In this document: in pieces, positions 1,493 to 62,835 of the stretch
Layout of the letters: every line of letters begins with the position of its first letter
Numbering within the stretch: position 1 is the first letter of the stretch
The notes under the pieces: model-generated
What the model was told of the DNA's origin: nothing
Databases searched by the model: none
Seen by the model: the letters and a program-made list of their open reading frames with translations, nothing else
Position numbers and translations under genes: made by a program
DNA from: Sabellastarte sp. h YS-2021
Lineage: Eukaryota; Annelida; Polychaeta; Sabellida; Sabellidae
Length of the DNA stretch: 64,000 nucleotides
Assembly (NCBI GenBank): GCA_964017235.1
Contig: OZ024940.1
Coordinates: 2,604,001 to 2,668,000 of the forward strand
Reading direction: 5' to 3'

Positions 1493-1506
1493 GTTTCCAT
1501 GGCAAC
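1493..1506. promoter_or_regulatory. isolated X-box-like palindrome GTTTCCATGGCAAC
   Basis: A near-perfect RFX-type palindrome standing alone in non-coding sequence, identical to the one at 15214. No nearby transcription start is visible, so a regulatory role is only possible. Confidence 0.3.
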
Positions 1507-5500: not shown

Positions 5501-6560
5501 CCCTTTTGGGTCAAATATGAGATGCGGAGGAAAATAATATGCATTACAAATCAGTTTTGAATATATTTTCCAAAAACGAAAACAAAAATCCTTTGAAAAT
5601 AGAACATCTTGATAATACGATAATGCTCGAATCCAACGAATGACCCCCAAATTCCACGTCTAGTTTTTTGAGTGAGACAAATAGACCAACGGACGCGATG
5701 ACAGTACAATCACCCTAGCTCTTACCTTTGGAAGGCGAATGGGCAATGACTAGTACCTGAGGGATCGCAAACCTTCGCCAGTCAATTTGAAGCCAAAAAT
5801 TTTACCAACGAGGGTCAAGGTCATCCCTAGGGGGAACTCAAGTAGAAGTAGATCCCCACCTTGTATGATAGTTAGACACCCACCCCCCCACACACCCCCG
5901 CACCCATCCCCACCCCCCATGTCAGTTTGTTGAGTGTTGGAGGGGATATTACTCGGAAAATCCCCAAACAAAATTCTCAAATCTCGAACCAAAGCGTTTT
6001 CGAAGAGGGCTGAGCGAACATATATAGACCCTACCTTGAGTCATATTAGGATCCCAATCTGGTATATAGTTTTTGAGTTAGATAAACAAGTTTATGCTCC
6101 CTCCCAACTGTAAGAATATTCCCCCCAAAAACTTGAGCTATTAGTTCTGATATAAAATAACAAGTAAATGTATTACTTTTCCCGAGTGTCTCTGCCCTTT
6201 TAAAAGACTATTCTTGTTAAGGCATGTACAGGAGTGGTTCAAGTACACCGGATGTTTACTGTGACCCCCCCCCCCCTCCCCCCAACTTTGCACCTAGTTT
6301 CTATGGAAGTTTCGCTTGCATTTTCTGGTAAATGACGACAAAGATAAATAGAAATTTGTACAAATATTTCCCAGGGGAGCCGTGATCTCATATAAAGGTG
6401 CAGTTGGACTTCCCCGATTGTTGTAAAGACCTACCACTGCGCTTCCCCCGACCCAGCAACCAACCCCCATGGCCTATAATTTGGCTACGAAAGAGTATTA
6501 GCGTCACCACTGGTGTTGTTTTTGTTGGAAATATCTGTGTTGGCGAGTTACAATATAAAG
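5500..6560. other. no gene seen; poly-C tracts
   Basis: Unassigned sequence with C-rich runs near 5880-5920 and 6268-6285. The ORFs here are short and of biased composition; none is supported. Confidence 0.4.
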
Positions 6561-6561
6561 A

Positions 6562-7210
6562 TATTTTCGCCACCACAGATGAAAAATTCACCAACGCAGA
6601 TGACTTTTTCGCCAACACTGATGATATTTTCACCAACACACATGAAATTTCAGCCACCACAGATGAAATTTTCGCCACCACAGATGAAAATTTCAGCCAA
6701 CACAGATGATATCTCCGCCACCACAGATGAAAATATAGCCAACACAGATGATATTTTCGCCAACGCAGATGATTTTTTTTCACCAATACCCGTAGATAAA
6801 AGTTCGCCACCACAGACAACTTTTTCGCCAACGCACATGATATTTCCGCCAACGCACATGCTATTTCCGCCAACGCACATGATATTTTCGCCAACGCACA
6901 TGATATTTTCGCCAACACAGATAAAAACAATATACATAGTTTCCCACCAACACAGATTATATTTTCGCCACCACAGATGATAATAACACCAATGCAAATG
7001 ATATTTTCACCAGTACTTGTAGATAAAAAAAAATTGCCAACGCAGATGAATATATAGCCAACACAGATGATATTTTCGCCACCACAGATGAAAATAACAC
7101 CAACACAGATTATTGATTTTTTTCATCAATACTTGTAGATAAAAAATTTTAGCCAACGCAGATGAAAATATAGCCAACACAGATGATATTTTCGCCAACG
7201 CAGATAAAAA
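6562..7210 (-). repeat. 21-bp minisatellite, left arm
   Basis: Units GATGATATTTTCGCCAACAC and variants (CACCAACGCAGATG, GCCACCACAGATG), interrupted by three variants carrying AGTACTTGTAGATAAAAAAA-type inserts near 6785, 7015 and 7130. Because 21 is a multiple of three, several frames stay open; these are not genes. Confidence 0.85.
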
Positions 7211-7285
7211 TGCTGCAAGTTACTATAAATAGAATGTTTACTGTACATAGAATGGTCTGCCCTGAATAGAAGTAGGGACAGTTCA

Positions 7286-7994: not shown

Positions 7995-8379
7995 AGTATT
8001 TTCATCTGCGTTGGCGAAAATATCATCTGTGTTGGCTATATTTTCATCTGTGTTGTTGAAAATATCATCTGTGTTGGTGAAAATCTCATCTGTGTTGGCG
8101 AATTTTTCATCTGTGTTGGCGAAAATACCATTTGTGGTGGCTATATTTTCATCTGTGTTGGCGAAAATATCATCTGTGTTGGCGAATTTTTCATCTGTGT
8201 TGGCTAAAATATCATCTGTGGTGGCGAAAATATCATCTGTGGTGGCGAAAATATCATCAGTGTTGGCGAAAATATCATCTGTGTTGGCGAAAATATCATC
8301 TGTGTTGGTGAAGTTTTCATGTGTGTTGGCGAAAAAGTCATCTGCATTGGTGAATTTTTCATCTGTGGTGGCGAAAATA
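7995..8379 (+). repeat. 21-bp minisatellite, right arm
   Basis: About 18 units of AAAATATCATCTGTGTTGGC plus G with variants; bounded by TTGCAGTATTTTC at 7991 and its complement GAAAATACTGCAA at the right edge. Confidence 0.85.
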
Positions 8380-13596: not shown

Positions 13597-13972
13597 CTAC
13601 AGGATTGAATGGTCTCGCATGTAATGAGTGAAGGGCCCGTGTACTACTTCCTTTCTCAAAACCACGTCACTTCCTGTCTTGGACCGTCTCTTCTTGATCA
13701 CCGTGACCCTCGGCATTTGCAAATCCACCGTTGGCAAGTCCCTCGCTTCCGGGATCGCCACATCCAACAGACCTTTAGAGAGGGTCTCGCAGACGGAGCA
13801 GGCTTCCGATTTAAACACGTGGCTCGTTTCTAGGACTTTGCAAACCGGACATTCCCTCTGCTTTGCCGGCCTGCTAGGCGGCTCAGGCTCTGGAGTCGTG
13901 TCTGGCAGTTCTTGAATTTTGGGAGATTTCGGAAATGGCGAAGCGTTGCAATGGTAGCAGTGTTGAAAATGG
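13597..13972 (-). CDS. His/Gly/Cys-repeat protein, exon 2
   Basis: Acceptor TATTTCAG before 13972, stop TAG at 13597. It holds three CxxC-type pairs (CYHC, CPVC, CSVC), a Pro/Glu linker (TPEPEPPSRP) and a basic C-terminal segment. An AATAAA on the minus strand lies about 540 bp downstream near 13058. Confidence 0.72.
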
Positions 13973-15738
13973 CTGAAATACAAGAAGGAGAAGGTATTGG
14001 CTTTAAAGACTGATAATAGGTATATAATGGGAAAATCTATGCGACTGTCATATATTTTAAATTATTATCACAAGTAAACATGTGTGTGTGTGTCGGGGGG
14101 GGGGGGGGGGGGGGGGGGGGGAAGGTTAAACAAACTTTATTTACCTTCACTAAGGAGTTCTTATATTCATGGCCGTCTGTCTGTCTGTTTGTTTGTTGGC
14201 AGGATTACTCAAATACTACTGCTTAGATCTTTATGGAGAAAAATAATAAGTCAGAAGGTGGGTCCTTGGTCCAACTTGGATCCCATTAAAATTTGAGAGT
14301 TATCTGAATATCACCGTCTGGATAGAAAAATATATATATCATATATCCGGGTTTTCCCATTTACTCAGTACGGAGCTGTTCGGCTTTAGAAAAGAGAGAT
14401 AAGGTTCCGATATAAACTGTACATGGCTTGGTGGAGCTCTACGCTGAAAAAATTACAAAGGTACATTCTGTTAGAAATATATAAATTAAAAAGTAATAAC
14501 TTTAAAGAAAATCATAAATTAAAAGTAATTCTGCTAGAAATATATAAAATAAAAAGTAATAACTTTAAAGAAAATCATAAATTTAGTAAGGGCTGTATTA
14601 AATACAGAGACTAATATAGCATCCAATATTTGAAAGTAATGGATTGTTGAAAATAATGGATATTTACTAGGACAGCTAAAGGCCAAGGAATTGTCACTAA
14701 CACCCATCTAGGTATCAAATACAACGGATCTTGGCCTTAGAATCCTCGTTTTTGCAGAGATTAAGTGCTATAAAAGTAGTCACATATTAGTTCGCAGTGG
14801 GAGAGTGCTTATAAGAGGCTTGTGGTTCTCAACCACTAGCCTCTCAGAACTGGTGTGCTGCGTTTAAATCTTGCTTATGGTAAAGAATGTGCAATCTAAT
14901 GAGGGCCTTTGGCCTAAGAACGTAGCGCCCCCTCCCCAACTTTGACCTCCGATACGACCTTATATGAGGTGTTTAGTCGGATGCCAATTCTGTGTATAAA
15001 TGTAATAGATTAATTTAGCGAGGAATCTAATATAAGTATCTCATATAAAAAGTAGCTTGTAAAAGTATAAAAAGTAACTTCCTACCCGTTTCCACAGCTA
15101 CTTTGGTTGCCAAGGCAACAGGTACTAATATCACATCCTGTGAAGCTTGGATGACACCAACACCTTTTACGATGGTCGTGCAAATGATGGATATTGCCCC
15201 AAGTATGTCCCGAGTTTCCATGGCAACCATGGCAGTTGCCATATCCCTGGTTGCTATGGAAACCATGGTGCGTATATTGGTGATGACAGTTTCCATGGTA
15301 ACCCTGATGAGTTTTACAGTTGCCATGGAAGTATCCAATGTTACGTCCTCGAGTATGCAAATCAACCGGGTTACCAGGGTGGTTTCCGTGGTAACCGTGC
15401 ATCCCATAGCAACCGTGATTATATCCATACATATTGTGATGGTTGCCATGGTAATAACCCAAATGATTCTCAAGATTTCCTGCATGATGATAACAACCGC
15501 CTTGCCTTATGAGAGGAAGCGGTTGGACGGTTGCCGTTGAGTAATGGTTGCTCAATGTTTTCCCAACCATACCATCTCTGTATAAGATAGTTTGCGGGGT
15601 CCCATATTGTACGTCACTTCCTCGATCATTTTGATCGCCGTATTTGCCAACATTCATCCGCGTCACAAAGGTATTTGCGGCGGGGTGATTCTTATTGTAT
15701 ACCCTATGTTCGGTTAAGTGTGAATCCGCGTCAGCCAT
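13597..15738 (-). CDS. uncharacterised His/Gly/Cys-repeat protein with C-terminal CxxC pairs (342 aa, 2 exons)
   Basis: Exon 1 is 15738-15086 and exon 2 is 13972-13597; the 1113-bp intron is GT-AG and the phase-2 junction keeps frame (653 + 376 nt = 343 codons). Residues 1-75 are ordinary in composition (MADADSHLTEHRVYNKNHP at the start). Residues about 80-217 are a degenerate repeat built on [GC]-[YFC]-H-G-N-[HC], very rich in His, Gly, Asn, Cys and Tyr, so metal binding or an extended structure is conceivable. Exon 2 has CYHC, ECPVCK and ACSVCE pairs, which resemble zinc-ribbon ligands, and then a basic stretch (VIKKRRSKTG) and a Thr/His/Tyr end. No signal peptide is evident. I do not recognise the family. 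Exon 2 looks constrained, and the joining frame supports a real gene; expression is unproven. Confidence 0.7.
14096..14121. repeat. poly-G tract in the intron of the His/Gly/Cys-repeat gene
   Basis: About 25 G in a row, following a short TG microsatellite. On the gene's own (minus) strand it is poly-C. Confidence 0.8.
14232..14365 (+). repeat. dispersed repeat G1, copy in intron
   Basis: CCTTGGTCCAACTTGGATCC, CACCGTCTGGATAG and TCCGGGTTTTCCCATTTACT match the copies at 33700 and 53930. Confidence 0.6.
14468..14583 (+). repeat. 63-bp tandem duplication
   Basis: TAGAAATATATAAA with AGTAATAACTTTAAAGAAAA repeated at 14468 and 14531, nearly identical. Makes a short false ORF. Confidence 0.75.
15086..15738 (-). 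CDS. His/Gly/Cys-repeat protein, exon 1
   Basis: ATG at 15738, donor GG/GTAGGA after 15086. It encodes the N-terminal region and the whole GYHGN-type repeat domain. The repeats coincide with palindromic DNA motifs (see 15106-15455). Confidence 0.7.
15106..15455. repeat. array of RFX X-box-like palindromes inside coding sequence
   Basis: Palindromes near the GTTGCCATGGCAAC consensus at 15106, 15214, 15250, 15289, 15319, 15382 and 15442, plus half sites near 15235, 15370 and 15404. Start-to-start distances are 108, 36, 39, 30, 63 and 60, all multiples of three, so each falls in the same codon phase and encodes [GC][YFC]HGN on the minus strand. Confidence 0.8.

Positions 15739-46896: not shown

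Positions 46897-62835
<15,939 letters not shown>

Follow-up and report, generated by a model that had tools for sequence, protein, structure and literature searches.

Motif array in a predicted two-exon gene

All positions given here are those of the window, the whole stretch of 64,000 nucleotides that was analyzed. On its minus strand we predict a gene with two coding exons and 342 amino acids. Predicted exon 1 (15086-15738, minus strand) starts at an ATG at 15738, with A at -3 and G at +4 in an open frame, and houses an array of X-box-like motifs. The 218-codon frame from this ATG runs to a TAG, and the donor sits at that stop (AACGG/GTAGGA; last exon base, 15086). The predicted GT..AG intron (13973-15085, minus strand; donor GGGTAGGA, acceptor TTGTATTTCAG) keeps the phase; splicing to the acceptor TTTCAG/CC, with 13972 as the first exon base, would restore the frame into predicted exon 2 (13597-13972, minus strand), which ends at a TAG stop. 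Exon 2 opens with HFQHCYHCN, so that the motif is in phase across the predicted splice, and then carries a CPVC..CSVC pair. The G+C content of the exons is 0.46 and 0.52, that of the intron is 0.36, and that of the adjoining kilobase on either side is 0.36 to 0.37. Codon scoring trained on a small set prefers the predicted frame in exon 1. The same scoring ranks a rival frame of exon 2 above the predicted one (0.022 versus -0.041). An overlapping second reading frame was considered and rejected, as the open lengths of the other frames equal the synonymous-permutation expectation (P 0.25-0.54).

The predicted exon 1 protein is an irregular repeat of [YFC]-H-G-N units, rich in His, Gly, Asn, and Cys, and the coding sequence (CDS) has 13 G/S/C-N dipeptides beyond codon 80. 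No Pfam or NCBIfam model matches the predicted protein at its curated cutoff; below cutoff, the Pfam Spt4 zinc finger is found in exon 2 (E 0.008-0.017), and two NCBIfam matches lie far under theirs (E 0.14 and E 0.36). Among PDB sequences the best match is at E 3.9, and AlphaFold2 applied to the exon 1 protein alone gives an uninformative mean pLDDT of 33. The predicted gene is single copy in its own genome of 1,785,957,881 bases (1.79 Gb). In searches that score the best candidates only and, for the exon DNA, skip very common words, each of four queries (the exon 1 protein, its repeat region, the exon DNA, exon 2) finds itself as its sole significant match; further matches (E 0.65, 4.4, and 8.9) are not significant. 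A transposon or multicopy family is unsupported, since every significant genome match in these searches is to self.

Seven sites in exon 1, given here in minus strand letters, resemble the X-box GTTGCCATGGCAAC. Reading along the gene, these are ATTACCATGGCAAC at 15442-15455 (YYHGN, 2 mismatches to the X-box), GTTACCACGGAAAC at 15382-15395 (GYHGN, 3), ACTTCCATGGCAAC at 15319-15332 (YFHGN, 3), GTTACCATGGAAAC at 15289-15302 (GYHGN, 2), GTTTCCATAGCAAC at 15250-15263 (GFHSN, 2), GTTGCCATGGAAAC at 15214-15227 (GCHGN, 1), and GTTGCCTTGGCAAC at 15106-15119 (CCLGN, 1). Two weak sites with 4 mismatches each lie in the same phase, GTTGCTATGGGATG at 15400-15413 (GCYGM) and GTAGCTGTGGAAAC at 15088-15101 (SSCGN), as does a site with 3 mismatches in exon 2, GCTACCATTGCAAC at 13945-13958 (CYHCN). 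A first-pass annotation had placed the array within exon 1 of a minus-strand gene, and this holds for the two-exon, 342-amino-acid model; its seven sites and their start spacings (108, 36, 39, 30, 63, and 60, each a multiple of three) are exact. Its description of the copies was too tidy. Every copy was said to read [GC][YFC]HGN, yet 3/7 do so and YYHGN, YFHGN, GFHSN, and CCLGN do not, and the sites are palindromes in a loose sense, with 8 to 12 of the 14 bases self-complementary per site and none of the seven perfect.

The array occupies a single codon phase. This is true of all 10 CDS 14-mers within 4 mismatches of GTTGCCATGGCAAC, including the one in exon 2, and of all 12 within 5 mismatches. 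Were phase free, a single phase for 10/10 sites would have a chance of (1/3)^9, about 5e-5, and none of the three frames of the consensus 14-mer contains a stop. Shuffling the codon order of the repeat part leaves on average 0.37 sites within 3 mismatches, versus 8 observed, and none of 2,000 shuffles reaches 8. For comparison, 16 such sites occur in 18 further 10-kb segments of this genome, chosen at round coordinates, and 12 of the 16 lie in arrays judged by eye to be satellite-like.

Codon choice within the motif

Does the peptide alone account for the DNA of the repeats? Two sets of sites were defined by their amino acids: six that read x[CYF]H[GS]N and a wider set of 13 G/S/C-N sites after codon 80. 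Third positions fit the X-box at 25/30 places in the six sites, versus 14.2 (standard deviation, 2.5) under synonymous permutation and 12.3/30 expected from external codon usage, the latter taken from a thin source, a 408-codon open frame at 57828-59051 of the window with 1 Cys and 6 Tyr codons. In the 13 sites the fit is 47/65, versus 28.0 under synonymous permutation. Neither 25/30 nor 47/65 was reached in any of 20,000 permutations or 20,000 external-usage draws. A test that makes no use of the consensus gives a pairwise third-position identity of 0.75 versus 0.41 among the six sites (P 0.00015), and the CDS holds 5 sites within 2 mismatches versus a mean of 0.83 under synonymous permutation, with 0/2,000 permutations reaching 5. 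Asn is encoded by AAC in 11/13 cases after G/S/C versus 2/10 elsewhere in the gene (P 0.003). Given the permutation, external-usage, pairwise, and AAC results, the motif DNA shows more uniformity than its peptide calls for, on the understanding that the codon, mirror (see below), and consensus tests all draw on one small set of sites and are not independent of one another. The first-pass annotation had offered, as one of two possibilities, that the RFX sites are a chance by-product of a protein repeat; this is now disfavored, as the motif codons exceed what the peptide and codon usage would lead one to expect.

The uniformity has limits in space. In the 14-mer core identity is 0.79; the 12 bp on either side give 0.33 and 0.28, versus a null of 0.31 from random in-frame stretches of the exon. 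Around the six peptide-defined sites, third-position identity is 0.13 to 0.40 at 8/9 flanking codon places, codon +7 being at 0.67. What is conserved spans about 14 bp, with sharp edges. Self-complementarity as such is not in excess of the synonymous expectation (P 0.07 and 0.38), and self-palindromicity as a selected trait was rejected on that ground.

X-box consensus and X-box copies in the genome

The human RFX1 consensus is GTNRCC N0-3 RGYAAC (PMC3414849), and the fly X-box has a restricted form, GYTRYY N1-3 RRHRAC, and a broad form, RYYNYY N1-3 RRNRAC (PMC2375033). All seven sites fit the broad fly consensus (8 CDS sites versus 4.58 expected; P 0.025), and 5/7 fit the restricted one (5 CDS sites versus 1.46 expected; P 0.0013). 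The form RTNRCC N1-3 RGYAAC is matched by 2 CDS sites (P 0.07). The strict human RFX1 consensus is matched by 1/7 sites, which is not above expectation (P 0.21); the site at 15106-15119 is its sole CDS match. According to the fly study, an upstream broad-consensus X-box does not predict a gene's RFX dependence (PMC2375033).

That the sites tolerate mismatches in a mirror-symmetric way is partly shown. Over 10 sites, mismatches per position are mirrored across the dyad (2,2,1,6,0,2,2 / 1,1,0,5,0,2,1; r 0.97, position-permutation P 0.0095), and the counts are alike even though the codon position differs in 5/7 mirrored pairs. Against synonymous permutation the symmetry has a P of 0.0014 in the 13 G/S/C-N sites and 0.014 in the 6 peptide-defined sites; by position permutation it is not significant in the 7 sites (r 0.80, P 0.11) or in the 6 peptide-defined sites (P 0.14). 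The variable positions, 4/11, coincide with the N of RYYNYY N1-3 RRNRAC, the broad fly form (PMC2375033). This variability is not an RFX signature by itself, because satellites vary most there too, jointly with another pair: in 91 sites within 4 mismatches at satellite loci, 4/11 are joint most variable with 1/14, with 20/94 mismatches. The share of mismatches at 4/11 is nonetheless greater in the exon than in the satellites (Fisher P 0.008 for 7 sites and 0.038 for 10).

The perfect X-box GTTGCCATGGCAAC has 7443 exact copies genome-wide, versus 0 copies of a control palindrome, GTTCCGATCGGAAC. Because that control contains a CpG, a CpG-free control palindrome of the same composition as GTTGCCATGGCAAC was added, and it has 3 copies. 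We sampled 23 X-box loci (L001 and L003-L024), a non-random set in that all lie in the first 12 Mb of C1; they are mostly dispersed satellite-like arrays with sites about 90 to 175 bp apart, often near 155 or 120, and 4/23 have a single site within 2 mismatches. By consensus lines drawn by eye, the arrays fall into two related satellite-like groups of repeats, or families, with 81% identity over 57 bp. Between these lines and the exon the best match is 15 to 16 bp, and flank identities are mostly low. The other possibility raised in the first-pass annotation, that a palindromic DNA repeat was taken over as protein sequence, thus finds no support in its simplest form: exon flanks are unlike those of the sampled X-box satellites, for which reason capture from them was rejected, and capture at random is disfavored because 10/10 sites share one phase.

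Two copies of GTTNCCATGGNAAC occur 4 to 65 bp apart at 23 places in the genome. At 16 of these the linkers are satellite-like by eye; the other seven comprise five with 4-bp linkers too short to judge (AAGT in 4/5, as in family B), locus L045, and exon 1, the last two being the places whose surroundings were read. L045 (G000:C3:144475744-144476785) has, at its positions 501-666, 5 X-box-like sites in about 170 bp, with 2, 2, 4, 2, and 5 mismatches and spacings of 28, 59, 28, and 37; as these are not all multiples of three, the sites are not in one phase, and there is no sign of coding at the locus.

Three further observations concern repeats. A related core, ATTGGCATGGCTAC, recurs every 168 to 169 bp in L032 and L041 as a satellite-like array. 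At window positions 1493-1506 there is a solitary GTTTCCATGGCAAC, one mismatch off the perfect X-box, which matches the satellite consensus over 11 bp only. Window positions 6560-7211 and 8002-8379 hold two arrays built from a 21-bp unit and oriented oppositely to each other; their best alignment shows 81% identity over 362 bp, and the pair could make up one large inverted repeat.

Interpretations and known systems

The exon may encode both a protein and regulatory sites, because its codon choice fits the motif beyond what the protein repeat needs. We therefore posit, tentatively and as the best of several doubtful readings, that exon 1 is in dual use, being an in-phase His/Gly/Asn/Cys repeat and at the same time a cluster of degenerate, candidate RFX-type exonic regulatory sites. 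In this model, the protein layer would be an irregular repeat, possibly metal-binding, without recognized relatives, while at the DNA level the identical codons would form a degenerate X-box cluster, most likely bound by RFX, and the putative exonic regulatory element would serve the predicted gene or a neighbor. Transcription of the gene, RFX binding and its regulatory effect, and metal binding by the protein are what we infer from the sequence; what statistics on few sites do show is that the sites keep to one phase, that their third positions match the X-box in excess, and that the 14-bp edges are sharp. A further proposal, possible but doubtful, is that an array of putative transcription factor sites, all of one type, coevolved with a protein repeat on common codons, so that the domain would be the regulatory array. 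The exon would then keep an RFX-site array as DNA, and phase would turn each site into a [YFC]HGN-like unit.

There are several other explanations. Our confidence in dual use and in coevolution was lowered, and that in two of these alternatives, a DNA relic and a role in RNA, was raised, because of the result for positions 4/11 in the satellites and the thin fit to the strict consensus. The array could be a relic in which a 14- to 15-bp X-box-like unit was spread within the exon by a templated or slippage process, selection against frameshifts kept the phase, and the common codons are leftovers of descent without a present function as DNA. The uniform motif codons and the second cluster at L045, out of phase and with no sign of coding, speak for it. 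The linkers, however, show no common ancestry, their identity being at the in-frame null; the sampled X-box satellites match the exon over 15 to 16 bp at most; and mismatches at 4/11 are denser in the exon than in the satellites (P 0.008 and 0.038, as above), though these positions vary in both. We consider a relic possible but doubtful. That GYHGN-like repeats were selected as peptide only, with codon uniformity due to codon-pair or context bias or to luck, seems unlikely. It would explain the strict single phase of 10/10 sites and the irregular linkers, such linkers being frequent in low-complexity proteins. It does not sit well with a third-position match that 0/20,000 permutations and 0/20,000 external-usage draws attain, with the use of AAC for Asn after G/S/C (11/13 versus 2/10 elsewhere; P 0.003), or with the 8/9 flanking codon places that lack comparable identity.

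The motifs are also mutually complementary and might act at the level of RNA, by folding the mRNA or as signals for splicing or RNA-binding proteins. The fold has a z score of -3.44 versus 100 dinucleotide shuffles, but against 150 synonymous permutations its energy is not significant (P 0.073); in addition, pair 4/11 is mismatched in 6/7 sites, so single-site hairpins would be imperfect. We judge this reading improbable. Least probable of all is that there is no gene here and that the open frames are incidental to a noncoding cluster of X-boxes. In exon 1, open stretches in the other frames reach 150 codons, a length that synonymous permutation predicts from the composition; no protein family is matched at its cutoff; and an alternative frame of exon 2 scores higher than the predicted one. 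Yet ATG, donor, acceptor, and phase all fit, the motif carries on into exon 2, 10/10 sites lie in one phase, and the G+C content exceeds that of the flanks.

With about ten aligned sites in one exon, where synonymous choice and sharp edges indicate a single DNA motif and the strict phase indicates the protein, the locus would be a small natural experiment on the sharing of codons between a protein and its overlapping binding sites. It also draws attention to the thousands of perfect X-boxes in this genome, mostly in satellite-like arrays where sampled, and to the reason for their presence. Literature searches on the X-box palindrome, RFX repeats, bivalve satellites, the GYHGN peptide, and exonic X-boxes returned no instance of this feature among the matches listed, and the available text of PMC5139131, PMC2375033, PMC3414849, and PMC13216554 has nothing on this exonic X-box repeat.

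Each of the known systems resembles the array in part. The X-box satellite arrays of this genome carry the motif GTTGCCATGGCAAC, as does exon 1 in degenerate form, but, in the loci sampled, with a spacing of about 90 to 175 bp, different flanks, and no monomer in common with it. The RFX X-box is matched in its fly forms (broad, 7/7; restricted, 5/7), with the variable positions 4/11 at the N of the broad consensus (PMC2375033); RFX factors, however, are said to act typically via a single upstream X-box (PMC3414849), whereas the sites of exon 1 are clustered in a coding exon and match the strict human consensus in 1/7 cases. A third parallel is with exonic enhancers and dual-use codons, in which coding DNA may carry transcription factor sites and synonymous choice follows (PMC13216554), as may be the case here. 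Exon 1 differs in that its putative sites form one homotypic array whose phase is tied to that of a protein repeat.
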